DNA from: Cryptococcus deneoformans JEC21
Taxonomy: Eukaryota > Basidiomycota > Tremellomycetes > Tremellales > Cryptococcaceae
NCBI RefSeq assembly: GCF_000091045.1
Contig: NC_006693.1
Span: 241,799-305,798 of the forward strand
Direction of reading: 5' to 3'
DNA: 64,000 nt
Each line of letters opens with the position of its first letter. Positions within the stretch are counted from its first letter, which is position 1. Position numbers and translations under genes: made by a program. Below are positions 2,616-50,243 of the stretch, piece after piece. The notes under the pieces are model-generated. The model ran no database searches, was not told the DNA's origin, and was given only the letters and a program-made list of their open reading frames with translations.

Positions 2616-4844
2616 ATGAGTGCAACTCACATTGAGGATCGTGATAATAGCTTTCTGGAAAACAAGGCTATTGATCACACTGAGGAAGTTGAAAATGTTA
2701 AAGGCTCTCAAGAACCGTCTAATCTCTCTGGCTTTGGTGGTCATTTGATAGTGAGTTTATATTTATATTTTACATGACTGTGTAAAACAGGTGTTAACAC
2801 CTGTTCCTAGGATGAAAATCTTGTGCGTGTAGAAGGTGAAGATAAAGTAACATGGTATCTTTGCTTTTTAGTTGCTGCCGTATGTGCATCATCCCGTATT
2901 TTTAGTATAAAGTGGCATTAATTGATTCCTAATAGTCGGCAATCGCTGGCTTCCTATTCGGCTATGACACTGGTGTCGTTGGTGTCGCATTGCCTTTGGT
3001 GGGAACCGACCTCGGTGGCAGCGCACTCAACTCTTCACAGCAAGAAATTATCACTGCAGGTACCACCATCGGGGCTATCTTTGGTTCTGCTATCCTTGGT
3101 GGATGGGGTGATCGCCTTGGACGAAAGATGGCAATCTTGATTTCTGACGTCTTGTAAGTTATCTTTTCGACAGTGTTGTACACTCCCACTTACCTTCTTT
3201 ATAAAGCTTTACCCTCGGTGCCGTGATCATTGCATGCAGTTACTCTGTCCCGCAAATCATTGTCGGTCGAATTGTCCTTGGTGTTGGAGTCGGTGGCGCA
3301 TCTGTCATTGCTCCTCTTTTCATCGCTGAGACAGCGCCTACCGCTGTGCGTGGTCGATGTATTGGTATCAAGTGAGCTTTATAGGTATTATATATGGGTG
3401 GACTTCAGCTGACGCTGGAGCATAGTGCCTTCTTTATTCCCTTCGGTCAGGTGGTCGCCGACGCAATCGGTGCAGGTGTACAGAACCTGCATAATGGGTG
3501 GCGATTACTTTGTAAATATGCATCATACACCTATTTACTGGTCCGCTAACGCATCACCAGTTGCTTTGGGCGTTGTCCCTTCCGTTCTTCAACTGCTTCT
3601 CTTCCACTATCTTCCTGAGTCACCACGAATCCTTATCCTCAGGGGGGATACCGACGGTGCTCGTACCGTCTTCCAGCATATCTACCCTACTGCTACTCCT
3701 GAAATGATCGACTACAAGTTCCGCGTCGCTCAAGAGTACGTCACTGCCACAACCGCGCTTCAGTCTGATACCACTTTCTGGGAAAGAGTGAAGAAAGTAT
3801 GGAAGACTGGATCTTACCGGCGATCTATCACTTGTGTCAGTGTTATTCAAGCCGCCTGTCAACTCTCTGGTTTCAACACCCTTCTCTATTATGCAGGCAC
3901 TCTCTTCGGTCTCCTTGGTCTGTCTAATCCAGCCTTGGGTGGTCTTATCCCTGCCAGTACCAACGCCGTTTTTGTATTAATTGGAATGTCTCTTGTTGAC
4001 AAAGTCGGAAGACGAGGGTTAATGTTATTTGGTGTGCCAATAATGGTATATTTTTTTCATCTACTCTGATGCGTGTTTTCTATGACTAACTCACATCCCT
4101 TCAGCTTCTTGGTCTTGTGTGGAACATCGTTGCTTTCTATTGTGAGTGGTACTATTTCGATTGACCTACCATCATCTCTAACCGTCATGCGAAGACATGT
4201 GCAAGCCGACAGGCGGATTCCTCGACACTTCTTACTCCTATGACACGACAAACGTCAGTGTTGTTATTGGTGGTATCGTCTTGTTCGTCCTCGGTTACGG
4301 TCTCAGCTACAGTCATATCGCTTGGTACCAGGCTGAATATTTGGCCCTCGAAGTACGGTCCATGGGTTGTGGTGTCGCCACCACTGCCAATTGGATTGCC
4401 AACCTCGTTGTCTCCGTCTCCTATCTTTCGGAGCTCGAAACTATGACACCCTCTGGTACCTACGGTTTCTATCTCGGTCTCAGTGTGATCGGCTTTGTGT
4501 TCGTCGTGTTCTGCTTCCCAGAAGCCAGTAAGTACTCTTAATATGCTAGCTTTTATCTTTTTTGGCCGAATACTGATGGCCTCACCTTCCCATCGATAGA
4601 AGAACTGTCCATCGACGAGACGTCCATTTTATTTGAGAACGACTGGGGAGTTAAGCGATCTATTCAGATGCGCAAAGAGCGACGTGAGACTCAAAAACGA
4701 TTCCATGATGCCGAACTCGCCGAAGCTGCCACAGCTCACATTGAAGCTCGTCAGCAAAAGTCGACTTCGGTCAGTCCTGCCGAGCTCTCCAAATTTATGG
4801 CGGGTTTGAAGGGTGGCAAAAGAAAACCTTCTGTCTCGGTTTAA
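2616..4844 (+). CDS. MFS sugar/inositol-type transporter (Itr-like)
   Basis: Nine exons (2616-2750, 2811-2879, 2936-3153, 3207-3371, 3426-3511, 3561-4045, 4105-4141, 4195-4527, 4600-4844) join with consistent phases to give 590 codons, so the gene appears intact. The product is a 12-TM sugar-porter-family permease. TM1 carries GFLFGYDTGVVGVALPL. The loop 2-3 motif is GDRLGRK, and RIVLGVGVGGASVIAPLFIAE precedes the PTAVRGR signature. The mid-loop holds PESPR and the second half DKVGRRG. The cytoplasmic tail has a FPEASKELSIDE variant of the sugar-porter C-terminal motif. The sequence is closer in feel to fungal myo-inositol transporters than to hexose transporters, but the substrate is inferred. 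The ATG at 2616 starts a hydrophilic N-terminus normal for the family. Both neighbours are broken metabolic genes, so this may be the survivor of a sugar/cyclitol group. Plasma-membrane location is expected. Confidence 0.85.
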
Positions 4845-5640
4845 GCCGCAGCTTGAGGACGTCCAGTGTGACAAGTGAACGTGGGGTCTTGATATGTGCT
4901 AGTGTTTTGGCTCTCAAAATGTTCCTAACTGAAGTTCTTGTATTTACATATATATGATCTGTATGCGTGTGATAGATATATATTGAATCTTCTTCTATGA
5001 TATGCATCAGCAGTTTACGTACGAGCAAGTGTGGGGCTTGGATAAAGTGGTCCTATTGCGTATGTTTGAGACAATAATCATGCTTGGGCATCGGTACCAT
5101 TCGATAGCTATGCAACGTAGGAGTGTGTACATACCAACGTATGGAGTAACATGAGATGTACGTAGACGTTTCCCGTATATGGAGCGGAAGGAACAAAGTG
5201 TTGGAAGTGGAGGGTATCCGCCCTACGCACCCCTAAATTCGGCGATAGCCCGGCGTGCCTGTCTTTCTCTTTTGTTCTTCGTACCTTTCTATTCTCTTGT
5301 TCTTCGGCATTATTGCCCATATTCCTTATTGTTCTTCGGCACGATGTACGCTCAGAGCTCTTGTACTGCCTAATATATATATCAAGATCCCTACATCATA
5401 CATCATGCATCATTACTTCTTTTCTTGATCATACGATCGGATTCGCTCTCATTTACAAAGATGGAGACACTGATAACGATGATATGTTACGTAAGGTTTT
5501 ATAAGAAGGAGCCCTCGGCTGGAGCCGAAAGTCACCGAGGCCAGGAGATGGATATCTTCCCATCAAATTATTTATCATACCACTTCCCGTTGAGAATCTT
5601 ACTTTCATACGCCCATCTTATTTACACACAGACACGTACA
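4845..5640. other. Intergenic region between transporter and dehydrogenase pseudogene
   Basis: This holds the 3' flank of the transporter and the former promoter of the next gene. The decamer TTGTTCTTCG occurs three times between about 5270 and 5340. No supported gene. Confidence 0.4.
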
Positions 5641-7071
5641 ATGGCACCATTCACTCTCAACTTAGGTATCATCTCTACTGGTGGCATCTCCACTACCTTC
5701 GCCCACGACCTTGTCGTCGACCCGGCCTGCCATAACATTAAGAATGTCAACCACCCAAGATCGCCGCTGTCGGCTCCTGCTCCGTCTATTCCGCTCAATC
5801 GCTCCTTGACAAGCTCAATGAAAGCTGCGAGGGGAAATCATGGGCTTGGGGAGTGAGGAATGGTGTTCCCGGTAGTGCCAAACCGAGGGGCACTTACGAG
5901 GAAATATACAACGATCCTGTACGCAATCTGGGATCATCTTAAATGCTATGATAAGGCGTATTGACGTACTGCTCTCACAAGTAGGATGCTACAGCCGTCT
6001 ACGTAGGCACCCCACATGTCCTCCACCACCGTAACGCAAAAGGCGTTCTGTTGGCTGGTACACACGTCCTCGAGAAGCCTGCTTATTTCGAAGTCGAAGC
6101 GTTGGACGAGTTGATCAAGATTGCTAAGGAAAACAAAATCTTTATGGAGTGAGTCATTTGTTTGTCTCCTTCTCCTTTTACTCTCTTCCATCTTTTCCTT
6201 TGTAAGCATGTATGCTGATGAGCAACTTCGCAGAACTGTGTGGACTCGATTCCAACCCACCGCCTACGCCGTTGAAGAAGTCATCAAGTCCGGTATTCTC
6301 GGTAAACCCAAGCGTTTTTTTGCCGATTTCTCCATGGGCTGGGACATAGGCGGTACGCTTTCTTATCGCTGTCTAACAATCCATAATCATTACTAATTTG
6401 ATACCATATCAGTTTCGGCCGACACCAGCCAAATGGTCAACCCAGCTCTCGGCGCTGGCTCGCTCCTTGATATGTCTGCCTACCCCTCTGTCTGGGCCAT
6501 GCTCCTCCTCCACCGCCACCCTCTCAACCCCGATAAAGACCCCAAGGCGTTCGTCACCCATCAAACTGTTTACCCGCGCACTGGAGTGGACATCAACTGG
6601 AGGTGGTTGGTGGAATAGAAGGGGCTTATGCCAAGGAATGCCGATGACGGACTCGGATAATGGGGGACAGAAGGATTCGGCGGCGGCTTTGCAGTGTGAG
6701 GAAGGGGATTTGGTTATCACCTGTACGTCCCCTCATTCTCCCCCTTTTCCCTCGCGCTAACTTTTCTTTCCCTCGCCCCCTTTCTTCCTATGTAGACCCC
6801 CTTTACCAACCGGAGACATTCTACTCCACCCTCGTCCCTCCCGCTTCCCGGTACTATCACCTCTTCCACCACTCATCATCACCCTCTCCACGACGGGAAC
6901 AATGGGATGTCATACAAAGCAGATGAGGTTGCGAGGTGTATTAGGGATGGGAAGATTGAGAGTGAGAGGATGCCATGGGAGGAGAGCAGGGTGGGGCAGG
7001 GGTGGGTTGATAAGGTGAGGAAGGAAGGGCCGAGCGAGACTGCCAAGTTGGTGAGGACTGCTGGACAATAG
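5641..7071 (+). pseudogene. Gfo/Idh/MocA-family dehydrogenase pseudogene (dihydrodiol dehydrogenase-like)
   Basis: The N-terminus MAPFTLNLGIISTGGIST gives the Rossmann GxxGxxS-type start of the trans-dihydrodiol/D-xylose dehydrogenase group. It is followed, in another frame, by KIAAVGSCSVYSAQS, then TYEEIYNDP, a spliced exon with AVYVGTPHVLHHRNAK and the family EKPAY motif, and FQPTAYAVEEVIKSG. The frame is broken at least three times. One base is missing in the C-run near 5757. A TAG replaces an expected Trp codon and a one-base shift follows at about 6600-6620. Another shift near 6850 precedes the C-terminus (...RMPWEESRVGQGW, ending at 7069-7071). Introns with good borders remain near 5909-5985 and 6150-6232. 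The lesions are scattered over the gene, so a single sequencing error does not explain them. In life it would oxidise a sugar or cyclitol with NAD(P). It is probably non-functional. Confidence 0.75.
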
Positions 7072-7947
7072 AGTAGGAAGCGGCAAGTGACAAGTGACGA
7101 AGGTCCTTGTGAGATATATCAAAAGCAGAAGGCGAAAACGAATATGCAGACATCAATGTTTACTGCCCCATCATCTAGGCTGTATATATGTTGTGACTTC
7201 CAGCTTTCAAATCATTGATTGCTTCGGCTTGATAAATCGATTAACAAAGAATGGCTTGTAACTTGTCTCGGAAACAAGTCTGACTTGTAACTTGAATCCA
7301 ATCTTTTTTTCTACCTTCTCCTGCGCCTAATCAACATTTACAACAAGGCAGGCAAGACATGAAGTTACAAAAAGAAGATAAACAAAAGAAGGAAGGATAA
7401 CTACGAAGTAATAATGTGATGGCGCAAAACGAATAACGAGTTACGTCGTATTACCATCTCGACTCCTTGTCGCCGCGTCTTTCTACAGTACGTACGTACA
7501 ATGTAGCACGCATGGAGGCGATATGTATGACTACTATTCAGCTATGATGTGAGGCCGTATCCATGCGAGACCACAATTCGGAACACGCCTTCTCTGGCTC
7601 TTCCCTTTGTCACTGTACACACTCTCCAGAATTCAGTATCCATCGTGGGGAATATGGCAACAGCCAGCGGCTGCTCTCGTGGACTGATCTGCTTGCCATT
7701 AAACATCTATAACTGTAATTGTATCTACTCTTAGGATCGTCTTGGACATGTGATTGTATGGCATACAAGTAACATATCTTTACAAGATGATGCCTATTCC
7801 AACTCCCAATATATACAACAGAAACCATATATACAACAGAAACCATATATACAACAGAAACCATATATACAACAGAAACCAATATGTACAACAAAAACCG
7901 CTATCCCCTCCTCTTTGTCCACCCACTCAACAGCCGAAGCTGTCCCT
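7072..7947. other. Intergenic region with an 18-bp minisatellite
   Basis: No gene is supported between the pseudogene and the convergent unknown gene. The stretch likely contains both 3' UTRs. The minisatellite at 7809-7899 is described separately. Confidence 0.45.
7809..7899. repeat. Minisatellite, 18-bp unit x4 plus one diverged unit
   Basis: The unit ATATATACAACAGAAACC is present four times without change (7809-7880), followed by a diverged fifth unit (7881-7899). Perfect copies suggest recent slippage or unequal exchange. It lies about 50 bp downstream of the stop codon of the minus-strand gene that ends at 7948, so it may be transcribed in a 3' UTR. Confidence 0.9.
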
Positions 7948-9984
7948 TCATCCCCGGGCCAACAAGACGCCCATCTGGTCCCGAGTGACCAGCTTCACCC
8001 GCACCCCGAGCATCGTTAGGCGGTCCTTAAAGGCCGCCAACGTAAGCTCGCCCGACTCTGGGTCGATATCTTCAAGGTCGATATCGACAGGGTCGGGCTT
8101 GTTGACTATTGGGGGGGGATCGTGGCGGAGATCGTCAAGGATAAGACCTGCCTTATTGGAGCCGAAGGACGTGTCAAACGACGAGTCCAACTGTCCAGAG
8201 GAGTCACTGTCGACGGAGGAGGGAGCCCTAGAGCATCTGGCACCTACAGTCGATTCGTAAGCGTAGCTTCAACGTGGAAGATTAAAAGGTGCATACGGTC
8301 ATTGGAGAGGAGGGAGGCCATGATGGACGTCTTCATGTGGAACATTTCCTTAGGAGCGGATAGCCTCTCCAGGCCTCTCCTGAACTCTTGCGGTGCAGTG
8401 GACGTTCGACTGTCAAACGCCTCAGCACGACGAGAAGAGGAGCCTCCGCCTGCACCCCTACCGCCAGGACGAGACCCTCCACCAAGACGCGACCCTCCGC
8501 CACGTGAGTTATCGCCTCCAGGGCCAGAGTTTCCGCCGTGCGAGCCATCATTATCCTTGCCAGGTGGCTTGTCGTCCCCTGGCTTGTCCTCTTCATCTTT
8601 CTCTTCATCATACAAATCCGCCAATGTGCGCTTGTTCCTCTTGGTCGAACGACGACTGTGTCGCCTGCGCCCAACTTCTAATCCTTTCAATCTCATGTCG
8701 GTGGCTGAATCAGCGGTCGCATCAACAGGAACATGATGAGCAAAAGGGAGGGGCAGGTCGTTGAGGAAGCGTTGCGTTGGAAGTGCCGCTGCATGAGCGA
8801 GGAACAAGAGAATGGTCGCATCGAGGTGATACCTTGCCTCTTTATTCAAAGTGGCGTTGGCACGGTCGCTGATCAGACAATTGGGAGGCGACGACCAAAA
8901 GTCTTGCAGCTCTGCGAGTTCCTCGACAGAGTAATCATCTGGCAGATATCCAAAATGTCGTCTGGATTTCTCCAAAAACTCGCTATCTGCCTCTAGGGCA
9001 AGTACGGGAATGTCTGGGGTCGAGTCTCGAGAGAGATACACAACCCGATAAAAGTATTCGTTGACTATAGAGAGACCGAAAATACAACCCGAGATGGCGT
9101 AGCCTAATATGACATACCACATAGTCTGAAACACGCCTTCCTGGCAGAGGTATCTGAGAGATTTCTCGTCGTTCTGTCTTTTAGCCTCGCCGGTAAGAAA
9201 AGTCGCTAGTTTCATCCACTTCAATTCGATGACCGCATAAAGCGTTCGTTTCCAGCCCGATGAGCAGCTGAGATCTTTGACAACACCGATAAGAGAGGCA
9301 TCAGGAGTAGTGGCACCATCCTTTTTTGATTTGGAGGTGTCTTGCGATTGAGAGGGCTATGTTGAACGCGTAATAAGCATTGTGTCACCTTTTGCACAAG
9401 CCATGACTCACGACTCCCAGGACTTTCCCCGTCCGGCGTCTGTACACATCCACCAGATCTAGCTTGGCCCACTCTTTGTCATGTCTGTCGTAGAAGGTCG
9501 ATTTCAAATTTGATTGATGAAAGAATTTGGTAGCCCTCGTCATGTGGTTGTAGTTCTCTTGGATGAACCGATCAAGATAGCGACGAAAAACACTGTCATC
9601 GAACATCTGCTCGTCATCGATCACCCCGTCCCTGTACTCATTGGCCCAGGGTTGGCCCAGATAGTCGCCTTGGCATGTCTCATCGTAGGAGCGGATAGTG
9701 AGGTATTCGGAGGCTTCATAAGGTTCGCTGAGGTCGAAGGGGACGAGAGAGAGAGGATATGGTCGGTCTTTGTTTTTGGGGTGGCCGCCGTATGCAATGG
9801 GATCGTCACGAGGGGATTTCGGATGTTCAGGGAGTGTCTGATATGATGAAGGGAGCGAGGATAAGGGTGAGTCGGAAGCAGAAGGGGGGGATAATGAAGT
9901 CAGGTGCGAGTCTGCAGTAAGTTGAGCTGGTGCCGCAGCTCGTGTCGACGCGCATTCTCGTTCCTGTGTATCGGGCGAGGTCAT
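7948..9984 (-). CDS. Unknown 642-residue protein with PD...ExK-type (nuclease-like) pattern
   Basis: Three exons (9984-9412, 9356-8297, 8243-7948) join in phase and give 642 residues. Residues 1-60 are Ser/Pro/Thr-rich. The middle contains TPDASLIGVV and, 24 residues on, LYAVIELK. These place D210 and E235-x-K237 in the order and spacing of PD-(D/E)XK nuclease folds, followed by a helix with a Gln (CQEGVFQTMWYVI) and a hydrophobic segment. The region after about residue 400 is low complexity, rich in Gly, Ser, Arg and Asp, and probably disordered. Similar endonuclease-like domains of unknown role are widespread in basidiomycete accessory proteins. I infer a restriction-endonuclease-like fold but not activity. 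The hydrophobic stretch could instead be a membrane segment. The gene abuts the retrotransposon island 400 bp upstream, so it sits at the edge of the former subtelomere. Confidence 0.7.
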
Positions 9985-10391
9985 TGTGGAAGTGGAGGGT
10001 GGAGAAAAAGTGAGAGAGTAATAGAGGATTGAATGGACAAAACGATGAGGACTGGGAAGAGAAGGCGGGAAGGAAGATAAGAAGTTGAATTATCGATTGT
10101 AGATTGATTCGTTCCGCGCAACGTGTTGGACCGGTGGTGACGAACAGTGAGACGTAATACGTAATCCTCGACATCCTCAACATCACCGCCGGCCACCTCG
10201 CTCCTCCGTCGGTCCGTCCTCTCTAGTCCTCCCCTTCCAAATAACCATACTTACGTAAGTAATTGTTCACGCACCCATCTCGATTCTCGATGTCTCGACT
10301 GGGCCTGCCATGGTGCTTTCTGCTTTCGTGTTTCTCATCTTTATTCTCCATCGGCTCATATCATATATTGGTGCAACAACAGCAAGCGGCC
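9985..10391. other. Promoter region of the unknown gene, up to the telomere repeats
   Basis: This is the upstream region of the minus-strand gene at 7948-9984. The sequence is unremarkable until it meets two telomere units at 10392. No gene is seen. Confidence 0.4.
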
Positions 10392-10407
10392 TTAGGGGGT
10401 TAGGGGG
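10392..10407 (+). repeat. Interstitial telomere repeats (TTAGGGGG)2
   Basis: Two perfect adjacent copies of TTAGGGGG, the Cryptococcus telomere unit, are directly followed by the 3' end of a Cnl1 element on the minus strand (TTATAGAGGTTGCA read on the plus strand). The G-rich strand reads 5' to 3' toward higher coordinates, which is the orientation of a chromosome end lying to the right of the left-hand genes. Confidence 0.9.
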
Positions 10408-12475
10408 TTATAGAGGTTGCATTTTTTCGTTGTTTAATTTATTGGGTTGTCGTGTGTGTTACCCGAATGAAAGAAACTACTTAAATAAACAACTTATTAA
10501 AGAAAAGAAAAAAAAATAATCCAACCTCCTCTTCCTCACAAGACCAGCGTCCTCGCCCTTGCCTTTACTAGCTCGACACCAATCCGTTTCTCCATTTTCT
10601 CGAACCCCCCCACCGGCATCGCCTCCCTCCACTCCTTCCATTCGTCTGCTGTGCTCCTGCTCATCAGGCCACCAGTGGAAAGGATGATCGGTTTAAAGAC
10701 CCCACCAGTGACTTTCGGAGCGTTCTTCGAGACGACCTGACCCACCTTGTCGAGCCAGTTCACGCACCGGTCCAAGCAGAAGTCGGCTAGCTTGCCGTTG
10801 GGGGCGCAGGGTGTGACGGTGCTTCTCGCGTCTCGGTCTCCGAGGGAGTATACCTTCAGGTCGTAGTCAGTGAAGGCCAACGCGCTGGAACCTCTGACCC
10901 GAAGGTCGTTTCTCCTTTGTCCCGACAGCGTGTGGGGCTCAATCTCAACCGTGGCACCTTGGATTTGTTTGAGGTGTTGATAGATGACGCGGTTGATGGC
11001 ATTGTGCCGGCGCTGGGTCCAGGGGTTGCGGGCGCGGCAAAGCTCGTCGTGACCCAAAGGTGAGTCCGACCCACAGAAGCGACAGACAGGTATCGAGGAG
11101 CCGACCAGGGTGCGGTCGTGGAGACCCGAGGCAATCTCGACGTTGGAAAGGCGCAGGGGCTGAAGGTAAGGGATGACTGATAACCAACTTCGGCCGAGTC
11201 TGGAGGCATTCTCGGTGAGTCGCTTGCGTTCGGTGTCGCCGAGATTACGTAGAATGGCTTCCTGTTGCGATTCCCAGAGTTCTGCGCATCGAGTTCGTTG
11301 GGGGACCGGAGTTGGAGGTTCCTCAGGCGAAGAAAGGAGACCTAGGTTATCGAGGAGAGTGTCGGAGGCCTCGGCTGCCGAGCGGTAAGCAAGGGGGGCT
11401 ACATCTTTGAAGGAAAGTAGACCTAGTCCGCCCAGTCGCGCTGGTAGCTTCGTCAACGATCTCCCTAGAGTCTCCTCTTCCACTGTATCCTCTCGCTGCC
11501 TCATCCTCATCCTTTTCACCTCCTCCCACAGCATCGTGTCCAGTCTTTCCCATAGATCTACAAGGTCGTCGGAGCGTAGGCTTCTCTGTAGGTGTCGTAG
11601 ATTTTGCTGGATGCAGAACCGTAATAGAAGGAGCGCGTGTTGATGTGGAAGATCCTTGAGCTTGCCCACCTTTGCCATTTCCTTCCGAATCCTGCCTTCC
11701 AGAAACTCCGCCCGCTTCTCCTTACCACCTACCATCGTCCCTAGCATCTTGAAGCCCTCCTGCCTGATCTCATCGAAGCTGATTAACTTGCATTTCTTTT
11801 CGTTGAGCTTGATGATGTGCTGCTTGTCGGCGAGGAATTGGGTAGTTTTGCTGAGGACTTGCGAGTCGTTTGAGAAGAGGTAGATGTCATCGAGATAAGC
11901 GAGCGCTTGCGTAGACGGACCTAGCGATTGACTGAGGGCGTGCAAGGTTGGTCGGAGGGTGATTGAGAAGAAGAGAGGGCCAAAGGGGTCACCCTGTCGA
12001 ACACCTTGAGAGGATTGAAGGATTTTGTCGCCACACACAAGGTCGGACGAGTCGCCATAGGCCCATTTGCAAGTCCTCCAAAGCGTCGGCGCATGGGTCT
12101 TGACCGCAGCTGCCATCTCGGCCCTATCTACACGGTTGAAAGCGTTAGAAGCATCGAGCGAGGCTAAAAAGGAGAACTCAGCGCCGGCAGAACCCTCCAA
12201 GACTCTCTCTGTCAGCCTCACGATCGGCTCTACACCACCGATTGACTTGACCCCGAGCTGGAACGGGAGGAGGAAGTCGGGTTGGAAATGCGAGATGATG
12301 AGAGCTTTCGCACATAGCCGATAGATAAGTTCACCAACAGCGATAGGTCGGATAGAGCCATCGTCCTTCTTCAAGGGGATGAGACGAGAAGTGCGGAGCA
12401 TAGAGCGACCAGGGGCGGTGTTGTTGGCGATGGCGGCGCAGAGGAGTTGGAGAAACTGCTTGACCGGCTCCCTCT
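10408..12475 (-). mobile_element. Cnl1: Cnl1 non-LTR retrotransposon, copy A (5'-truncated)
   Basis: The 3' end of the element lies at the telomere repeats (10408) and its 5' edge is cut at about 12475. A ~128-bp 3' UTR with A-rich and T-rich tracts follows the stop codon at 10536. The coding part holds reverse transcriptase, a zinc finger and a restriction-like endonuclease. Copy A differs from copies B-D at scattered bases (for example CTCACAAG versus CTCATAAG just beyond the coding end), so it is the oldest or an independent insertion. The join with copy B falls in a G-run. Confidence 0.85.
10536..12475 (-). CDS. Cnl1 reverse transcriptase / restriction-like endonuclease (5'-partial)
   Basis: The open frame runs from the truncated 5' edge of copy A to the stop at 10536, with the first ATG at 12401. 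Reverse-transcriptase blocks are visible. Motif A is in FLASLDASNAFNRVD, motif B in GVRQGDPFGPLFF and motif C in LAYLDDIYLF (catalytic DD). The C-terminal part has a CCHC-type finger, CRFCGSDSPLGHDELC, followed by a restriction-like-endonuclease core around RRNDLRV and TDYDLKVYS. This domain order is typical of site-specific elements of the R2/CRE type, to which telomere-targeted Cnl1 belongs. The N-terminal part of the full element is missing, so this copy cannot be autonomous, but the remaining ~645 codons are open. Confidence 0.85.
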
Positions 12476-12940
12476 TGGGGGTTATAGAGGTTGCATTTTT
12501 TCGTTGTTTAATTTATTGGGTTGTCGTGTGTGTTACCCGAATGAAAGAAACTACTTAAATAAACAACTTTTTAAAGAAAAGAAAAAATAATCCAACCTCC
12601 TCTTCCTCATAAGACCAGCGTCCTCGCCCTTGCCTTTACTAACTCGACACCAATCCGTTTCTCCATTTTCTCGAACCCCCCCACCGGCATCGCCTCCCTC
12701 CACTCCTTCCATTCGTCTGCTGTGCTCCTGCTCATCAGGCCACCAGTGGAAAGGATGATCGGTTTAAAGACCCCACCGGTGACTTTCGGAGCGTTCTTGG
12801 AGACGACCTGACCCACCTTGTCGAGCCAGTTCACGCACCGGTCCAAGCAGAATTCGGCCAGTTTGCTGTTGGGGGTGCTGGGGGTGGCTGTGCTCCTCGC
12901 GTCTCGGTCCCCGAGGGAGTAAACCTTCAGGTCGTAGTCA
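12476..12940 (-). mobile_element. Cnl1: Cnl1 copy B (short 5'-truncated 3' fragment)
   Basis: About 465 bp of the Cnl1 3' end: the conserved 3' UTR plus the last ~110 codons (stop at 12607), identical or nearly so to copies C and D. The 3' edge is GGGGGTTATAGAGG. The 5' edge ends abruptly at about 12940 against the 3' edge of copy C. It encodes only the tail behind the endonuclease core and is non-functional alone. Confidence 0.85.
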
Positions 12941-14006
12941 GGGGTTATAGAGGTTGCATTTTTTCGTTGTTTAATTTATTGGGTTGTCGTGTGTGTTACC
13001 CGAATGAAAGAAACTACTTAAATAAACAACTTTTTAAAGAAAAGAAAAAATAATCCAACCTCCTCTTCCTCATAAGACCAGCGTCCTCGCCCTTGCCTTT
13101 ACTAACTCGACACCAATCCGTTTCTCCATTTTCTCGAACCCCCCCACCGGCATCGCCTCCCTCCACTCCTTCCATTCGTCTGCTGTGCTCCTGCTCATCA
13201 GGCCACCAGTGGAAAGGATGATCGGTTTAAAGACCCCACCGGTGACTTTCGGAGCGTTCTTGGAGACGACCTGACCCACCTTGTCGAGCCAGTTCACGCA
13301 CCGGTCCAAGCAGAATTCGGCCAGTTTGCTGTTGGGGGTGCTGGGGGTGGCTGTGCTCCTCGCGTCTCGGTCCCCGAGGGAGTAAACCTTCAGGTCGTAG
13401 TCAGTGAAGGCCAGAGCGCTGGAACCTCTGACCCGAAGGTCGTTTCTCCTTTGTCCCGACAGCGTGTGGGGCTCAATCTCAACCGTGGCACCTTGAATTT
13501 GTTTGAGGTGTTGATAAATGACGCGGTTGATGGCATTGTGCCGGCGCTGGGTCCAGGGGTTGCGGGCGCGGCAAAGCTCGTCGTGACCCAAAGGTGAGTC
13601 CGACCCACAGAAGCGACAGACAGGGATCGAGGAGCCGACCAGGGTGCGGTCATGGAGACCGGAGGCAATCTCGACATTGGAAAGGCGCAGGGGTTGAAGG
13701 TAAGGGATAACTGATAACCAACTTCGGCCGAGTCTGGAGGCATTCTCGGTGAGTCGCTTGCGTTCAGTGTCGCCGAGATTATGTAGGATGGCTTCCTGTT
13801 GCGATTCCCAGAGTTCTGCGCATCGAGTTCGTTGGGGGATCGGAGTTGGAGGTTCCTCTGGCGAAGAAAGGAGACCTAGGTTATCGAGGAGAGTGTCGGA
13901 GGCCTCGGCTGCCGAGCGGTAAGCAAGGGGGGCTACATCTTTGAAGGAAAGTAGACCTAGTCCGCCCAGTCGCGCTGGTAGCTTCGTCAACGATCTCCCT
14001 AGAGCC
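12941..14006 (-). mobile_element. Cnl1: Cnl1 copy C (5'-truncated)
   Basis: About 1.07 kb of the Cnl1 3' half. The coding tail (13070-14003) begins after the RT domain and keeps the CCHC finger and endonuclease core, ending in the same C-terminus as the other copies. The 5' edge meets copy D at CCTTAGGGGTTATAGAGG, where TTAGGGG is a residual telomere-like unit. Small differences from copy D (for example P-to-I in ...EEPPTPIPQRT) show they are separate insertions. Confidence 0.85.
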
Positions 14007-15749
14007 TTAGGGGTTATAGAGGTTGCATTTTTTCGTTGTTTAATTTATTGGGTTGTCGTGTGTGTTACCCGAATGAAAGAAACTACTTAAATAAACAACT
14101 TTTTAAAGAAAAGAAAAAATAATCCAACCTCCTCTTCCTCATAAGACCAGCGTCCTCGCCCTTGCCTTTACTAACTCGACACCAATCCGTTTCTCCATTT
14201 TCTCGAACCCCCCCACCGGCATCGCCTCCCTCCACTCCTTCCATTCGTCTGCTGTGCTCCTGCTCATCAGGCCACCAGTGGAAAGGATGATCGGTTTAAA
14301 GACCCCACCGGTGACTTTCGGAGCGTTCTTGGAGACGACCTGACCCACCTTGTCGAGCCAGTTCACGCACCGGTCCAAGCAGAATTCGGCCAGTTTGCTG
14401 TTGGGGGTGCTGGGGGTGGCTGTGCTCCTCGCGTCTCGGTCCCCGAGGGAGTAAACCTTCAGGTCGTAGTCAGTGAAGGCCAGCGCGCTGGAACCTCTGA
14501 CCCGAAGGTCGTTTCTCCTTTGTCCCGACAGCGTGTGGGGCTCAATCTCAACCGTGGCACCTTGGATTTGTTTGAGGTGTTGATAGATGACGCGGTTGAT
14601 GGCATTGTGCCGGCGCTGGGTCCAGGGGTTGCGGGCGCGGCAAAGCTCGTCGTGACCCAAAGGTGAGTCCGACCCACAGAAGCGACAGACAGGTATCGAG
14701 GAGCCGACCAGGGTGCGGTCGTGGAGACCCGAGGCAATCTCGACGTTGGAAAGGCGCAGGGGCTGAAGGTAAGGGATGACTGATAACCAACTTCGGCCGA
14801 GTCTGGAGGCATTCTCGGTGAGTCGCTTGCGTTCAGTGTCGCCGAGATTATGTAGGATGGCTTCCTGTTGCGATTCCCAGAGTTCTGCGCATCGAGTTCG
14901 TTGGGGGACCGGAGTTGGAGGTTCCTCAGGCGAAGAAAGGAGACCTAGGTTATCGAGGAGAGTGTCGGAGGCCTCGGCTGCCGAGCGGTAAGCAAGGGGG
15001 GCTACATCTTTGAAGGAAAGTAGACCTAGTCCGCCCAGTCGCGCTGGTAGCTTCGTCAACGATCTCCCGAGAGCCTCCTCTTCCGCTGTATCCTCTCGCT
15101 GCCTCATCCTCATCCTTTTCACCTCCTCCCATAGCATCGTGTCCAGCCTCTCCCATAGGTCTACAAGGTCGTCCGAGCGCAGGCTTCTCTGCAGGTGTCG
15201 TAGATTTTGCTGAATGCAGAAGCGTAATAGAAGGAGCGCGTGTTGATGTGGAAGATCCTTGAGCTTGCCCACCTTTGCCATTTCCTTCCGAATCCTGCCT
15301 TCCAGAAACTCCGCTCGCTTCTCCTTACCTCCTACCATCGTCCCTAGCATCTTGAAGCCATCCTGCCTGATCTCATCGAAGCTGATTAACTTGCATTTCT
15401 TTTCGTTGAGCTTGATGATGTGCTGCTTGTCGGCGAGGAATTGGGTAGTTTTGCTGAGGACTTGCGAGTCGTTTGAGAAGAGGTAGATGTCATCGAGATA
15501 AGCGAGCGCTTGCGTAGACGGACCTAGCGATTGACTGAGGGCATTCAAGGTTGGTCGGAGGGTGATTGAGAAGAAGAGAGGGCCAAAGGGGTCACCCTGT
15601 CGAACACCTTGAGAGGATTGAAGGATTTTGTCGCCACACACAAGGTCGGACGAGTCGCCATAGGCCCATTTGCAAGTCCTCCAAAGCGTCGGCGCATGGG
15701 TCTTGACAGCAGCTGCCATCTCGGCCCTATCTACACGGTTGAAAGCGTT
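14007..15749 (-). mobile_element. Cnl1: Cnl1 copy D (5'-truncated, fused to a transposase gene)
   Basis: About 1.74 kb, from the 3' edge next to copy C to about 15749, where RT motif A is cut just before NAFNRVD. Upstream sequence then switches to the unrelated DDE-transposase gene. Motifs B and C, the CCHC finger and the endonuclease core are kept, and the frame is open from the junction to the stop at 14139. Confidence 0.85.
14139..15749 (-). CDS. Cnl1 RT/endonuclease, copy D (N-terminally truncated)
   Basis: The open frame covers the end of RT motif A (NAFNRVD), GVRQGDPFGPLFF, LAYLDDIYLF, the CCHC finger and the endonuclease core. Without its first half it is inactive as a retrotransposase. 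The frame stays open for a few codons (to an ATG at 15800) into the neighbouring transposase DNA on the same strand, which is a chance product of the junction. Confidence 0.7.
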   Translation of the reverse strand, partial: NAFNRVDRAEMAAAVKTHAPTLWRTCKWAYGDSSDLVCGDKILQSSQGVRQGDPFGPLFFSITLRPTLNALSQSLGPSTQALAYLDDIYLFSNDSQVLSKTTQFLADKQHIIKLNEKKCKLISFDEIRQDGFKMLGTMVGGKEKRAEFLEGRIRKEMAKVGKLKDLPHQHALLLLRFCIQQNLRHLQRSLRSDDLVDLWERLDTMLWEEVKRMRMRQREDTAEEEALGRSLTKLPARLGGLGLLSFKDVAPLAYRSAAEASDTLLDNLGLLSSPEEPPTPVPQRTRCAELWESQQEAILHNLGDTERKRLTENASRLGRSWLSVIPYLQPLRLSNVEIASGLHDRTLVGSSIPVCRFCGSDSPLGHDELCRARNPWTQRRHNAINRVIYQHLKQIQGATVEIEPHTLSGQRRNDLRVRGSSALAFTDYDLKVYSLGDRDARSTATPSTPNSKLAEFCLDRCVNWLDKVGQVVSKNAPKVTGGVFKPIILSTGGLMSRSTADEWKEWREAMPVGGFEKMEKRIGVELVKARARTLVL

Positions 15750-18700
15750 CACTTTTGTCAGCCAAAGCGGAAGCCACTTTGGAGGAAATTCTCCGTTCAA
15801 AGTCAGCGCAATGCAATTTCAGAGTCTGCACTGAACGCTCGACCTCATCCCTTGGCAAGGGGAAGCTGGTGTTGTAAAAAACAGGTTTGATTTCAGTAAA
15901 ATGGTCATTGTAAATCAGACCTGCTTCTCGCCATTCAGCATCCATCATGGATGACCGCCATCCATACTGTAGCCTCAATGCGGCAAAGCGGAAAAAAGCT
16001 GACGTAGACAACTTTTGCTTTTCGACATATGTGGCTATAGATGCGTCCAGACCTAACTGGTACGTGGCCGCTGATCTTGATAAAGGAGGAGGAGGAGGAG
16101 GAGGAGGATCGGCAGTGTCGGGGGGATGGTTTTGCAGACTACCGGTGACTGCTGCCTTACGTGGCTGACACCAATCTCTAAGCGTCAACCGATGCTGAGG
16201 TAGACTGGGTCCTGCCGGGCATGGTGCAGAGGAAGACGAGGAAGACTGTATGGCAACAGTCAGGTGTGAAAGGGGTGATATCGAGGGTGTATGTGTATTC
16301 GGCGTAATTTGAAACTGGAATGTTGCGCAATGGAAGACATGATGAGATGTCAGTAATTGATCCTTCTTGGATTGTGTCCTTTCTAGTTGACTTCGGCCAC
16401 TTACTCTCTCGTGAAATAGCCATACTTGCCTCACAACCTTCCTTGATTTTTGAAGAATTGACTGCATTAACTTGTCTCATCATATCTTTATCAAGTGGCT
16501 GATCATTCTTGTTCTTTTGCCTGTTGCTTGTGTCAAAAAGAAAAATCCGAAGCCTAAGAGGGTAGTACACACCTTTTCATTTGGCTTTCCTCCATGACGC
16601 AGTATGGAGCCGAGCTTTTGCGAGGAGAGGGAGTTCTAAGATCTGGTGGGATCAATGACTGTAATAGATTGGAATCAGTAATGCAACAGTGTTGATAATA
16701 ATCAATGACCTTACCTCTGGTTCAACCAAAACATCAGGGTCACCATTGAGAGACACGCCCAAGAAAAGGCAGTCCTCATCATTCCTTGATAGCTGACCTC
16801 CAATTCCATCCTTAACATCTTCTTCATCTACCGTGTTTTCCTCATGGATGGTCATTAAGCTTTTCTTTAAAAATTTGTATCTCTTCTCAGGGTCGCCATC
16901 AAACTCTCCTGGTGGCTGTCTGGGAACTAAACCAAAACGATGATGAGGTGCAACATCCAGAAGTAATGGTTGCGGCACCCCATATAAGGCCTCCTTTGAC
17001 GCAAAAGGTGATTCATGACAAATACATGATGGGAACTAGCTAGGGCAGAACGGAACTGTCGTGATGGTGAATCAGCAGGTTGTGAGAGATTGTAAATGTC
17101 AACCTTCACATTGTACCGCAAGATACCGTCCGCTAGTAGATCCTGAATCGTTGTCAAGCTGGATGCCTTGCCTCGAACCAAATCTCCGAGACGCTTGTGC
17201 CAGTTCTCATTACCACTGGTGTGAGAGGGTAAATGAGGATGACGACGTTGCAGGCAGCCGCCCCTGACATGTTTGACCTGAATATCGAAAGTCGACCTGA
17301 ATATCAGAGTGGCGATGGGTGTGGACATGAAATGGCTTCTCAAATCATCCATTCTAGTCAACTGCTCCGCAATTGGCCGATATTGAGCTGGGCTGCCTTT
17401 TTTATTTGCCCATGAAGACACGATCGCTTGGGCAAACCTGTAGAAAGCGCATGGCGGTGATCGGAATTGGCTGGCAAAGTCCGCATAATTCGTTCCTTGA
17501 CATGATAGAAGTCTTGAACAACAGACACCTCGGGTAACGCCTCGTGAATGCGACGACGGAAGTCACAGCAACGGTCAACGACGACTTCGCCAAGCTCACT
17601 GAAATTTTGACCAAGCAGATGACATCTTTCAGCAAATTCGAGAAGTGGTCCTTGCATTTCTGCAGGAGAGTTATTTGGGAGAAATTCCTGGTTTCGTCAC
17701 ATGTTAGCGACACACTCTAGCTGTATTGTTACGTGGAAGTAGTAGGGTAGAACTCACCCAAAACACTAATTCTTTATCTTCATTCACTCCTGTAAGCAAG
17801 CCTCCAGCGAACGGGTTTACAACCTGCATCTTGCCATTGTTTGTACGCGAATATACTGAAGCTTTGTTTGCAACCTTCATGGTCGCGTCAACGGCGGCGA
17901 TAAGACCTGTGTGAGGTAAGTTTGCATCAGAATAGTAAAAGATAGATCGAGCAAGAGAGTGAACGTACCTGACAAAGTACGGATGTACTGCGAGCTTTCA
18001 TGCTTGCGCTGCCTCGCCACAAAGTCTTCATAGCATGCTCGTACAGTGTCAAAAGAAGGACTCGGGTTAATGGCGATTTCATTGTCGTTTCCGCTTGTTC
18101 CGGTCGAGGTGTTTCCGCTCAATTCGGTGATATTATCTTCGGAGACGCCAGTTCTTACAGCAGGTGGTCCATCATCCTTCTTGATCTCGGCTCGTTGGAG
18201 CATCATAGGGAAAGGTGTAGCCGATTGGTTGAAGAATGACATCCGAGTTCGCTCGCGAAGAGCTGCGGCATAGAACCGGGTTTCAAGTCGTCTGCTGTAC
18301 AGTATATGTAGCTCTGCAGCATGTGTCAATTAATCAAATAGTTAATTCATAAAAAAGTAACACGAAAAATTTCAAACTGACGGTGTATATTTTCCACAAG
18401 CTGATTCACTGAGCTTTTGGGTCGTACCTCCGCAATGAGGTCGTAGAGCTCCCTCGTCACCGCAGTTTTGGCAAGGAAATGAGGTAAAAGACCTGTTCGA
18501 TTGGTTACGCCTTTCAATAGCTCTGGCTGGTACAGATGGGCAGAAACTCACCTTGCTCCCACGGCATACATCCCTCCCAATAAGTATCTGCAGATGGCGA
18601 ATAAACCCCATGCTCTGCGCAAATATATTGAAGGCTGACGACTTTGATGTTATGATCCACCCCATAAACGCTCCGAAAAGGTTTCCATCCCTTACGTTTG

Positions 18701-19229
18701 ACCGTTGACTGGCAGCCGGCCTTTGGGCATTTGTCGAGAACCATTTCAGGATAAAAAAGAGGATGTACGACTAAAACAGGTTCTACGAGAAATGAAGAAG
18801 GATTGGCAGAGATGCTTTTGCCGCGGAACTGCAATTCCTCAAGAGAGGGAGGACTGAAGAGGGGACCATAGAAGGGAAACGACGATGGGGTACAGCCTGA
18901 CTGAAAAGGAATGGAGCTGTCAGCGATCGTCGCCTGCGTGCACTAAGCACGGAACTCACCTGATTCTTCAGACGCTCAAGTACTGTCATATACTCTAGGA
19001 CGCCGGCCACGAAGTCCATTTGTTGCAGAGTACCGTGACATTTATCCTTTATCCACCTGTTTCTCCTGTTTTCGATGCTGGCATCCGAGAGGTCTCCTCC
19101 TTTCCAATCTACAATCCAATTATTGGCGTTCTTTCTCTTCTGCGATTCGTCGTCTCTTTTCTCGCGACCCTTACAAGCCTCGCGGAGCTGAAGTCGAACC
19201 ACTGATATATTGAATGATATGGATGACAT
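15727..19229 (-). CDS. DDE-type transposase-like gene, 3' end truncated by Cnl1
   Basis: A multi-exon minus-strand gene starting with the ATG at 19229 (MSSISFNISVVRLQLREACK). Next comes a KCPKAGC...VKRKGWKP zinc-binding-looking module near 18650-18740. A transposase core follows: AVDATMKVANK near 17870-17895 (first Asp), GLLTGVNEDKELVFW, VVVDRCCDFRRRI near 17545-17580 (second Asp), DFYHVKERI, and SGNENWHKRL near 17180-17215 (candidate third acidic residue). These parts match the layout of basidiomycete DDE transposases with an N-terminal Cys-containing module (DUF6729-like), a low-certainty family name. The C-terminal exon reads ...RISSKVASALADKSER and enters Cnl1 DNA at about 15749, ending at a stop inside it. 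Exon borders between the blocks were not all resolved. Terminal inverted repeats were not identified with certainty. Confidence 0.6.
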
Positions 19230-19417
19230 GTTTCAAATTCAGAGTGTGACGAAGCGATTGTCGAGTAAATGAATGTATCGTGAAGAAGTGTAAAATAGAT
19301 GAATGTCGAATAGAGGAAGAGATATAACGGTTATAATTAATTTTTAATTGCATCAACTTATATGCATCAACTTAATGAATTAATTATTGTTACCAAATGT
19401 TACGGCGGCCGCCGAAT

Positions 19418-19459
19418 CTTACCAGATTTGGACCCTGAGAATCTGGTAAATCTGGTAAG
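19418..19459. repeat. 12-bp perfect inverted repeat with 18-nt spacer
   Basis: CTTACCAGATTT (19418-19429) is the exact reverse complement of AAATCTGGTAAG (19448-19459). The spacer also contains another AATCTGGT. It could be a hairpin, a relic transposon end or a protein-binding site; nothing decides between them. Confidence 0.7.
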
Positions 19460-19621
19460 GCGCTGGGGTCCGGATGTGAGTAGGGTGCTCTTTTTTGTGG
19501 CGATGGAATTTCCATCAGGCAATGTGATCGGATCCAAATCGAAAGTCACCATCATCATCATCATCAATAGAATAATAATAATTATATATGATGGGGCCAA
19601 CCGAGAAAATGATGGACCGAC

Positions 19622-19790
19622 TTCCATCCCGACCCGAATCCAGATCCGGAATCATGCCCAAGACTTCTCTTTTCCATCCCGACCCAAATCCAGATCCGGA
19701 ATCATGCCCTGCCTTCTCTTTTCCATCCCGACCCTTCTCTTCTCCATCCCGACCCAAATCCTGATCCGGAATCATGCCCATGATTCTCTC
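19622..19790. repeat. Tandem repeat, ~50-bp unit, 3.4 copies
   Basis: Units start with (T/C)TCCATCCCGACCC and continue AAATCCAGATCCGGAATCATGCCC with a variable tail ending TTCTCT. Full units lie at 19622-19671, 19672-19720 and 19742-19790, with an internally deleted 21-bp unit at 19721-19741. It sits immediately before the lone Cnl1 3' end and has the look of a subtelomeric satellite. Confidence 0.85.
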
Positions 19791-19814
19791 CCCCAGCTGT
19801 TAGGAGTTAGCAGC

Positions 19815-19943
19815 GAGGAGAGCGGAGGTTGGATCATTTTTTTCTTTTCTTTAAAAGTTGTTTATTTAAGTAGTTTTTGTAATTCGGGTAACACACACGA
19901 CAACCCAATAAATTAAACAACGAAAAATGCAACCTCTATAACC
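19815..19943 (+). mobile_element. Cnl1: Lone Cnl1 3' end in opposite orientation
   Basis: About 125 bp matching the Cnl1 3' UTR on the plus strand. It includes GGAGGTTGGAT, the T-rich tract, GTTGTTTATTTAAGTAGTTT, GGTAACACACACGACAACCC and the terminal GCAACCTCTATAACCC. A single CTTAG follows before unique sequence. It has diverged slightly from the array copies. Its 3' end points right, away from the island, opposite to copies A-D. Confidence 0.85.
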
Positions 19944-20052
19944 CTTAGATGCATAGCTATGGAATAATACCTGGCTCCAAGTATACTTGCCTCAGTCCGA
20001 AGGCCCAAAACCGCTTCCGTAACAGAACGACAGTTTCCCAAAACTTTTCTGT

Positions 20053-23000
20053 TCAACTCCCTTTTCTTTCCCGATCTCCAGCAGACTTCCTCAAATTGAC
20101 ACTAAGAGCTCTCGCTCTTCTCCACCTTGCAAACCTTCTAGTAGTCGTAACGCCGAATCTCTTGATGTATCCGAATGAGAATACGATGAAGAAAGCGACA
20201 GTGCAAGGGACGGCAACCTTCCAGAAGTAAGAGACAGGGCCTTCGATTTGATCGAAGCCTGTGAAGTTCATACCAAAATAGGAGGCCTACAATGATAACG
20301 CGAAAGATTCCGAATAGTAAATTTTCAGTGGTACGAGATGACGAAGAAAACGAGTTGGATAGAGGGGGGTGTTGTTTGGTAGCGAAGAGAGTACGTTAAA
20401 GAGGGACATGAGAGCAATGGTTAGTAATCGATAACGGAGCACAACACTGTAGGAATCGGTGCTTACAATGAAAGTCAAAGCTATGGACATAAGTCAATCA
20501 ACAAAACTGACCATGTCTACCACACCAGTTTCTGTACTCACGCAAGAAAACAACAGTGACGATGCTCAATCTTTCCATTGAAGCATTCGTTTGGAAACTT
20601 AAGACATTCTTACCGATTGCGAATTTTGTCAGTGTTTTTGGCACAATTTATTTTGAGAGCACAAATAACAACAGGCAGACTCACAAAGACATAATCTGTC
20701 AAATGATCACACGTCGACACAAATTGCTCCAAACTTCCCACAATGATCTCCAAATGATCAATCACATCCTCAATATAGACTTTCGTCAATGGGGAGAAGA
20801 ATCCCAAGCTAGCCGCCCCTACATCTACACCCAGATGCGGCGCTCCCAAAGCTGCGAGGTTCCTATGTGACTGGTGGAGGTTCATCATCGACAAGATCGA
20901 GGCTGCGTCGGCGTCTGACTGCTTTGCTCTGAGGGCAACACCGGGAACAGGAGTGTCGGAACGGGAGGCGGCACGGGAAATGGAGGATGTAGGTGGTGCA
21001 GTGGGTGCGATATTATGGGAAGGCATGAATGGCTGTGGTTGAGGCTGAGCAAAATGAGGGATTTCAGCCAATGGCATAGCTTGTGAGTGCTGGGAGCTTC
21101 CTGAATGAGGTGAGAAAGGGTTGTATCCCGCCCCCGCACCCATAGCTCCTCCTGTTCCAGATGCAATGCTGGAACTATGTCCTAATCCATCCTGTTCCCT
21201 CCCATGCCCGTTCCCATTCCCATTCCCCTCACCCCCGTAACCCCGACCCACCGCGCTGGCGGCAACTGAACGTTGAATATCTTGGTCACGGATGACGTAA
21301 CACAAATGCAGAAGTGGTGTGAGAGCACGGCGAAGGCGTATTAGTTGGGAGGAGAGTACATGAAGGTGACGAACAGTTTCCATCTGTCCGGACAAGGTTA
21401 GCTCCAGTTATGATAAGCAATAGAATGAACATACCTCTGGGTCAACGAGGACTGAAGCCTCGAGCTTCAAGATCTCGTTCTCGAACCTTTGGGATACCTA
21501 TTGCACGATAAGCATACTGCTTTTTCATCTTTGAAGGACGACTTACCTCGATGGCAAGATCAACAACTGGGAATACAATGTGAGCCTGCAGCCGCCATGT
21601 TGTTAAAAGCAACTTACCAGTATCTAGGATAGCCTGTGCCAGCATACTAACATCCCCTGATCTCCGTAACAGACTCTGCTCGTCCTCTAGTCTTGTATAA
21701 ATAGGTGACAGAACCTCTTTTGTAGGTTTAGCATCCATCGAGATCAAAGTCCCTGCCTTAATGTAAGTTTACTATCTAACAATGGCGAAGAAGAAAGATA
21801 CAGACCATCTCTCAACATGAAGATGCTCAGAATACTCCGGCGAATAGGAACCATATAATCTGCACTCAGTTCTTCAACAGTGAGCTTATGTGCTTGCTTC
21901 TCTGGAGTCTACTCCGTACATCAGCAAAATTCCCACACCGGATGTAGCCATTAGCTTACTCGGTGTATCCCTATCGTTCGCCTCGGAGAAATCATACTAG
22001 GCTCAAATGCCCCTTGAACACCCTCAGGCAACCTCGGCTTCTTGTGGTCCCCTTCAAACACCCCTCTCACTCGCTGCGAGAACCGCCTCTCCTTACCTAG
22101 ATGTATCCCCCCTTGCCCCTTCCCGTAAGTTCCCTCAGCCATATCATCTGCTAACATGTCAAGCTCGTCTCCTTCAAAGATTTGACTGTGGTGGATAAGT
22201 AGTTGGAGATAGAGATGATCTTTGTAGAAGTCGAGTTTGGAGCGAGGAGAGTCCGGTGCTTCGAGAGAATCTTCCACGGCCAGGGGGTGTAGACTAAACT
22301 GAAACGTTAGCCACATCCAATAGGAGATATCAATAAAAGAGATCTATGACTTGCCCAAAATGTAAAACCAAAGTCTTTACAACCTCCCAATTCACACCAT
22401 CAACATGTACTGCTCGTGTATTAGCTTACATATTAGCCGATCATCACATCTACCTACTCCATCTGACTCCGATAGGTTTATCATTTTCATCCAGCTGCCG
22501 CTTCCCATGCCCACTATCGAGCCACTCTTGCAGCTTTTCTCCAGGAAAGTCTGAACTTTGGTTCATACAATCTTGATCTGGATTTGAACAATAGTCGACG
22601 ACCTACGGAATGCCCGTTAGTACTTATTCAAGCCCCTAATAAAAGCTCAATAGTTCACTCTGATACGTGTTTTTCCTTTCAGATGTCCATAGTTCTTCTG
22701 ATCCCTCTTGCTTTTCACATCCACGCCAGGCTCGTCACCTGTCCCGACCGCTGTCGAAGTATTCAATAAGCGATATTGATCCGAATTCCGCCTCGAGCTA
22801 CTATTTGACAAAGTTACACGTCGGTGTCGTATACCATTCCCTATGTCCGGTAAGTCGGTTGCTTTTGACCTTGGAGATCGATCGCGCTTAGTCCACCGAT
22901 TGAGGGAGGTGGATGGTTGCGCTTCGACATCGATGTCTGTCTCTGATGGAAAAGACGCTGTCCTCGTTTCGCTTTTGATATTGCTGGGGGAAGTATCGGC

Positions 23001-23137
23001 TAAGGAACGAACTTGGAATACGGCTAGAATTATTTTAGCTACACATATCAACTCTAACATTAAGCCCCAAAGTACACACTTGAAGTACTCGACCTATTTG
23101 GACCGAGAGATGGACGTGGTTGTCCGATGCCGGTCAT
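20053..23137 (-). CDS. CorA/Alr-Mnr2-type Mg2+ transporter
   Basis: A multi-exon minus-strand gene. The ATG at 23137 opens MTGIGQPRPSLGPN and splices (donor about 23078, acceptor about 23032) to a long hydrophilic N-terminus. Conserved blocks follow: VDGVNWEVVKTLV, the CorA helix SLHPLAVEDSLEAPDSPRSKLD, YKDHLYLQLLIHHSQ, FMLRDGTLIS, and a long helix with VSMLAQAILD and RRALTPLLHL. Near the end, ASYFGMNFTGF is the invariant GMN motif closing TM1 of CorA channels, followed by TM2 (YFWKVAVPCTVAFFIVFSFG) and a basic tail. The long Gly/Ser/Gln-rich insert (about 20880-21260) inside the soluble domain is typical of fungal Alr/Mnr2-type proteins. It takes up or stores Mg2+ at the plasma or vacuolar membrane; which one is not decidable here. 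Exon joins in the middle were not all checked. Confidence 0.85.
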
Positions 23138-23680
23138 GTTCGTCTTCTTGCAGGAAGTCGAGAAAGGACGGATGAGAGAAGATGGCGAGTTCGGAAAGAT
23201 TCGAATGTACAACAACAGCATATCTCGTCTTAAATCAAATGGGAAACTACAAATAGAACTAATAGTAGGAATAGGCAAATGACGTTGTGGAGCAGCAAAT
23301 CTTGTTGCGTCATAGGTTTTTGTCATTTTGTAATCAAAGTTATCTATATATTCCTGCATGCGCAATTATTAGAACTTGCTCGCCTAATCCCCTTCAAACT
23401 TCCCGATTCAAGTCCTGGAGCACAACTATGGTTGTTCGTTTCATATTTTCATCGATTTCACTTACTTGGTACCAAGAGTGATAAAGAGTCAGTGAAATCG
23501 ACGGCAACAATAGAAACAAAGGTTGCAAAAAGCGAACCTCCGGCTCGGGGCCGCGACAAAGGATTGACTTATATGACCTTCTTTTCCGCCCTCATATAAA
23601 TAAGCCTTCAACACTTGCCCTATCATTAATCTTGCTTTCAAGCATATATTTGCAACTCACAACCTTCAATTCAACTAGTC
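23138..23680. other. Divergent promoter region between CorA-type gene and Ser-rich gene
   Basis: Two start codons face away from each other across this stretch. A TATA box (TATAAATA, 23595-23602) lies about 80 bp upstream of the ATG at 23681. No further gene is seen. Confidence 0.45.
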
Positions 23681-49816: not shown

Positions 49817-50243
49817 ATTTAGACTTGCGGTAAATAAAGAGTAAAGGAAGTAATACAAAACAGGGCACTTTGTGAATATTATCGATCGGCATGCTACAAA
49901 TGACCCTCCTTAAGTAGCTCAATCGTCCGAAAAGTACGTAAGCCTACAGAACTATAATGATTCCATGTCAGAATATGGCAAAAACCAACAGGCACTCACT
50001 CTCAGGGACGTTTGAGATTCATGGATAACAACAACTGGACTGAGAACAGTTGTACTTCTTCCAATGCAAACATCGCACAGCTCGTATTGGACTAGTTTCT
50101 TTTTGTAAAATACAGTAGTACAACAGTATGCGTCGCTGATGATTCCATTTTATACATACATATTTAGTTGATTGCCCGAGATAACAGTCACTACTTTGGT
50201 CCACAATTGCAGTGCGACATCCCACGCAGCGGAAGGCTTCCCC
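49817..50243. other. Intergenic region
   Basis: 3' flank of the SDR gene and of the minus-strand zinc-knuckle ORF. No gene seen. Confidence 0.4.

Follow-up and report, generated by a model that had tools for sequence, protein, structure and literature searches.

The stretch of 64,000 nucleotides analysed here (the window; positions 241,799-305,798 of contig 8 in the genome of Cryptococcus deneoformans JEC21, which has 19,051,922 bases in 14 contigs) contains at 10392-19950 an island of repeats, including pieces of the retrotransposon Cnl1 and a transposase-like gene. We conclude, with a probability of about 0.92, that this island is the joint of the published end-to-end fusion between chromosomes 8 and 12 of JEC21. 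A preliminary description, drawn from the letters of the window, had considered the island a relic of telomere-to-telomere fusion. Its basic inference that two chromosome ends were joined is supported by synteny with H99, the duplication shared by contigs 8 and 12 and the published accounts of the fusion. However, the fusion is recent, comes from laboratory crosses and has already been recognised, so that it is no unrecognised old relic. The event itself is known and in print, and the anatomy of its joint, as described below, is a modest addition. This anatomy bears on the origin of the fusion, by recombination between transposons or by non-homologous end joining, a point that reviews leave open (PMC3861523, PMC6895784). 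The sequence also confirms a change of karyotype already documented for this strain, a reference in wide use, and where chromosomes 8 and 12 of JEC21 serve as a reference for gene order, the island represents a laboratory-made joint and not an ancestral arrangement. Positions are those of the window unless they carry a contig prefix (C8, C12 and so on).

The fusion has been described as a telomere-telomere fusion followed by dicentric breakage, with 62 kb and 22 genes duplicated (PMC3861523), and as a 63-kb duplication that chromosomes 8 and 12 share at their left ends, dated to the cross of B3501 with B3502, the fusion being absent from the parents B-3501 and B-3502 (PMC3769227). As far as these accounts describe the JEC21/JEC20 fusion of chromosomes 8 and 12, it agrees with the present case in strain, chromosomes, left-end duplication of ~62-63 kb and boundary transposons, and no difference was found. 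We indeed observed that contigs 8 and 12 share 62.87 kb at their left ends, in inverted orientation. About 29.9 kb of this overlap was aligned (C8:56-492, 500-10000 and 42992-62926). C8:56-492 shows no difference from C12:62501-62937, C8:500-10000 has 100% identity to C12:52992-62493, and C8:42992-62926 is an inverted copy of contig 12 sequence that differs from it by three Ns alone. The match starts at C8:56, where the telomere repeats of contig 8 itself end; past C8:62926 contig 12 becomes telomere repeats, and contig 8 has no match to contig 12 from 62,932 to 70,000. Both copies end in telomere repeats that sit directly on unique DNA. By its two end points the overlap measures 62,868-62,871 bases, a range that reflects three shared bases; the abstract of Fraser et al. 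2005 reportedly gives 62,872. Because an inverted left-end duplication of these two contigs is the signature of the published fusion, we identify the island with that event.

Comparison of synteny with related genomes, which the preliminary description had proposed as a check, points the same way. According to Table 2 and the text of PMC2677675, the segment to the left of the island maps to chromosome 12 in H99: 0-245 kb of JEC21 chromosome 8, named TR(8), corresponds to 0-202 kb of H99 chromosome 12, and a transposable element lies adjacent to TR(8) in both genomes. The same paper places the centromeric region of chromosome 8 at 706-762 kb in JEC21 and at 464-485 kb in H99, and this offset of 242 kb suggests that H99 chromosome 8 starts near the island.

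The left flank of the island is a true right chromosome end. On the forward strand, its last part, 7879-10391, resembles contigs 1, 14 and 7 at their right ends (86-88% identity); on the reverse strand it has 92% identity to the left end of contig 10, and parts of it find matches at the left ends of contigs 10, 3 and 2, as a single polarity predicts. Two weaker matches of this part do not fit, one of 80% to C12:864128-864566 on the reverse strand, 42 kb from the right end, and one of 69 bases inside contig 4. The stretch 1157-8269 has 94% identity to the subtelomere on the right of contig 10. Contigs 7 and 14 continue the shared sequence past the point where the window turns to TTAGGGGG, and in contig 1 the telomere starts roughly 45 bases further out than this switch. 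The genes of this flank had been taken for subtelomeric, and the flank is indeed common to other subtelomeres, up to the two TTAGGGGG units. It carries a sugar-transporter piece (Pfam 6.7e-30), which also matches the left region of contig 4 on the forward strand, and four other open reading frames without a Pfam match.

Two telomere-type units had been noted ahead of the Cnl1 copies, and these we found as TTAGGGGG in tandem. By chance, TTAGGGGG would turn up 1.7 times in 64 kb of shuffled sequence, so that one unit carries no meaning. The tandem 16-mer has 114 matches genome-wide; among the matches listed (contigs 1 to part of 12), only the one at C8:252190 is more than 600 bases away from a contig end. 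A telomere pattern of 23 bases proved to be confined to contig ends and is absent from the island. We ruled out the TTAGGGGG pair as the fusion point because the real left end of contig 2 has two places where such a pair leads into Cnl1. The pair, ~5.3 kb away from the likely joint, is the base of an old telomere into which Cnl1 inserted.

BLAST confirmed the four Cnl1 copies with 3' ends facing left that the preliminary description had reported. The fourth holds a reverse transcriptase domain (open reading frame 14139-15818, Pfam RVT_1, E 1.2e-11). The 3'-terminal 293 bases of piece 1 have at least 32 matches in the genome, five of them in the island, three interior (C7:961 kb, C8:192 kb and C4:719 kb) and 24 near contig ends. 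In each of these 24, which lie within ~52 kb of the ends, the 3' end points to the centromere. Within the island, the polarity of the four left pieces fits a right end and that of the right-hand piece a left end. Of the 3' ends of Cnl1, which had been said to abut the telomere repeat, those of all four left pieces sit on at least GGGG, and that of the right piece abuts CCC only; elsewhere, 11 of 13 readable 3' ends lie on at least four Gs, the exceptions being one on the left of contig 10 and one on the right of contig 7. Cnl1 is a retrotransposon of the R2 superfamily close to MoTeR (PMC12810828). Compared with the elements described in that paper, the island is alike in its 5'-truncated nested copies, its 3' ends on TTAGGGG or G-run sites and its subtelomeric character; it differs from the usual placement in that the array is interior, owing to the fusion.

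Two features of the array deserve mention in their own right. Piece 2 is identical over its whole length to the first 463 bases of piece 3 (12478-13404), which may mean that one copy inserted very recently, that the segment was duplicated locally or that the assembly is in error. In addition, at the junction of Cnl1 into Cnl1 before 12482 (12440-12495), 45 bases are the same as at a junction in the left subtelomere of contig 5, at ~16.3 kb; either one target site was hit twice or the array may have been exchanged between chromosome ends.

With moderate confidence, we place the joint most likely at 15749/15750, where the fourth Cnl1 gives way to the transposase-like gene. Piece 4 tracks piece 1 until 15749, beyond which piece 1 and a copy on contig 6 carry on as Cnl1. 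There is no telomere repeat or G-run where piece 4 breaks off, whereas both Cnl1 5' ends that were read at real chromosome ends (the right ends of contigs 7 and 10) run into telomere repeats. On the other side of the joint, the transposase gene of the preliminary description was recovered on the reverse strand as a transposase-like gene that is open up to the joint; the exon model runs seven codons beyond it, the first of which spans it. The features of the window that bear on this arrangement are listed in the table.

Features in and around the island (window positions)
Feature	Position	Strand	Remarks
Subtelomeric sequence, left (former chromosome 12-side) end, telomere to the right	7879-10391	+	Shared with other subtelomeres
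Two TTAGGGGG units	10392-10407	+	Base of old telomere and Cnl1 target
Cnl1 piece 1	10408-12477	-	3' end at left (10408)
Cnl1 piece 2	12478-12940	-	463 bases; 3' end 12482
Cnl1 piece 3	12941-14004	-	3' end 12945
Cnl1 piece 4	14010-15749	-	3' end 14014; ends abruptly at 15749; RVT domain
Most likely fusion joint (inferred)	15749-15750		Cnl1 stops; non-telomeric, non-Cnl1 sequence starts
Transposase-like gene of a DNA transposon	15750-19229	-	Open up to the joint; exon model 15727-19229
Short tandem repeats	19622-19755		50- and 21-base units
Diverged Cnl1 3' fragment	19815-19944	+	3' end at right, adjoining CCCTTAG
CorA-like transporter gene	20053-23221	-	First right-flank gene; start codon uncertain, 3' end sure

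According to the published account, an end-to-end fusion of two parental chromosomes gave a dicentric, whose breakage led to new chromosomes 8 and 12. To this the anatomy of the island would add the following. Both ends would have been without telomeres before they fused, one broken inside its Cnl1 array and the other inside the gene of a DNA transposon, and the broken ends would have been united by end joining at 15749/15750. Two dicentric sister chromatids may then have broken, each at a point of its own in the old chromosome 12 arm, and telomere addition would have healed both stumps, one probably at C8:56-58, where up to three bases are shared, and the other after C8:62926 on the contig 12 side, directly onto unique DNA. 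With two breaks at different points, each of them healed, the overlap between them would remain as the duplication. Taken together, we somewhat favour the view that the fusion joined neither telomeres nor homologous transposons, but that a Cnl1 array broken in its fourth element was end-joined to a broken DNA transposon after telomere loss on both chromosomes, perhaps through Cnl1 turnover exposing the ends. End joining as such is no new idea, as PMC2677675 worded the original proposal as non-homologous recombination near transposons. The placement at 15749/15750 and end joining, taken as a pair, have slightly better than even odds in our judgement.

Similar events are known elsewhere. The fusions that followed centromere loss in C. 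deuterogattii have at most six shared bases at their joints and were interpreted there as microhomology-mediated joining (PMC7188483). As described, they are likewise cases of end joining near chromosome ends with a joint that lacks telomere repeats; however, those joints lie in unique sequence after loss of the subtelomeres, whereas the island keeps two telomere units and a Cnl1 array on one side. The head-to-head fusion of human chromosome 2, mentioned in the same paper, also joined two chromosome ends, but there telomere repeats meet at the joint, and no inverted telomere repeats meet in the island.

Several observations weigh against the reading given above. Section 8 of PMC6895784 gives the JEC21 duplication as 16 kb, versus ~62-63 kb in the assembly and in the other papers. 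Near the right end of contig 10 (C10:1085.26-1085.72 kb), telomere repeats that come after a Cnl1 piece give way to other DNA ahead of the final telomere; non-Cnl1 sequence past an array therefore does not by itself prove a fusion, and telomere repeats may become buried without one. The right edge of the island lacks a telomere repeat, so that its status as a former chromosome end rests on the published synteny. Finally, the alignments of the four homologs to the 947-residue transposase-like product are confined to residues 1-676 and end before the joint, and residues 790-947, the last 158, gave no match when used as the query, so that truncation of the gene by the joint is only suggested.

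The last of these points would also suit a fusion whose joint lies elsewhere in 15750-19814, in which case part of the transposon would have come from the left chromosome end. The abrupt stop of piece 4, without the telomere repeats into which the 5' ends at real chromosome ends run, argues against this placement, and we regard it as possible but the less probable choice.

It is rather doubtful, and a little more so than a displaced joint, that the same fusion arose through homologous recombination between subtelomeric transposons. Meiotic recombination between such repeats has been proposed, according to the review PMC6895784, and would suit the transposable element found next to TR(8) in both genomes. 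However, the Cnl1 pieces of the island point outward in opposite directions, separated by ~4 kb of other DNA, and the earlier proposal was itself phrased in non-homologous terms (PMC2677675). Moreover, since Cnl1 has a single polarity relative to chromosome ends, a crossover between two Cnl1 copies would presumably only exchange ends and yield no dicentric. The fourth Cnl1 breaking off into the transposase-like gene likewise speaks for end joining rather than for recombination between Cnl1 copies, and the joining of two broken ends is a simpler account than a Cnl1 crossover. A variant in which the DNA transposon was present on both parental ends in opposite polarity is possible.

Mis-assembly across repeats is very improbable and was rejected: the array is repetitive, and the exact 463-base repeat common to pieces 2 and 3 means that its internal copy number could be wrong, but hybridisation of XL280 against JEC21 revealed the rearrangement (PMC3769227), and the anomaly of the JEC21 assembly has been investigated and accounted for (PMC3861523). 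A cluster of nested transposons in a chromosome interior, resembling two chromosome ends without any fusion, for which one could cite the interior position of 3 of the 27 Cnl1 matches outside the island and a Cnl1 insertion into the FRR1 gene of C. neoformans (PMC12810828), is equally implausible and was rejected in view of the subtelomeric left flank with its telomere units, the ends of contigs 8 and 12, which are duplicated and carry new caps, the H99 synteny and the published fusion accounts.

The preliminary description had considered each side capped by Cnl1, and this holds for the left end with its telomere units and array, but not for the right, where the Cnl1 piece (92.5% identity to piece 1 by BLAST) is a diverged fragment without telomere repeats and therefore does not itself show a capped end. 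Its 3' end does face right with CCCTTAG at the edge, as had been reported, but no telomere repeat is there: the edge reads CTCTATAACCC and then TTAGATGC, not the telomere unit CCCCCTAA. Dating the fusion by this piece was dropped, as the age of a diverged fragment says nothing on that of the fusion. A short Cnl1 fragment in the former chromosome 12 arm (C8:191725-191849) shares exactly with it a diverged stretch of 41 bases (19802-19842), pointing to an older Cnl1 variant. The satellite-like repeats of the preliminary description correspond to the short tandem repeats of the table.

The right flank is core sequence, in line with the earlier impression of its genes. The CorA-like gene is intact (Pfam E 1.2e-29), and its stop codon ends ~108 bases from the Cnl1 edge. 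C. neoformans Ze90-1 has a protein 86% identical to the predicted product across the full query, and the C termini of the two agree. Compared with the rest of the genome, 19945-30000 gave one match, of ~120 bases at 81%; apart from this match and Cnl1, no repeat was found there.

The transposase-like gene may belong to an undescribed family of transposases. Its four homologs (P0044-P0047) are uncharacterised proteins of C. amylolentus, Atractiella and Clathrus without a Pfam domain. With regard to KDZ-type DNA transposons, marked by a KDZ transposase domain and terminal inverted repeats, a Pfam scan of a first model of 517 residues gave no family at 1e-3, and the product has a single weak match, to DDE_Tnp_ISL3 (E 0.032), below the cut-off of that family. 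Ends of the element were not found. The sole relative found in the genome is a deleted copy at C5:1412969-1414538, 89-95% identical in pieces to 15750-19481.

Within the left flank, a repeat of ~260 bases at 5195-5457 matches many interior sites on other contigs, several of which fall in the centromeric regions listed in PMC2677675; it is perhaps a solo long terminal repeat of a centromeric retrotransposon.

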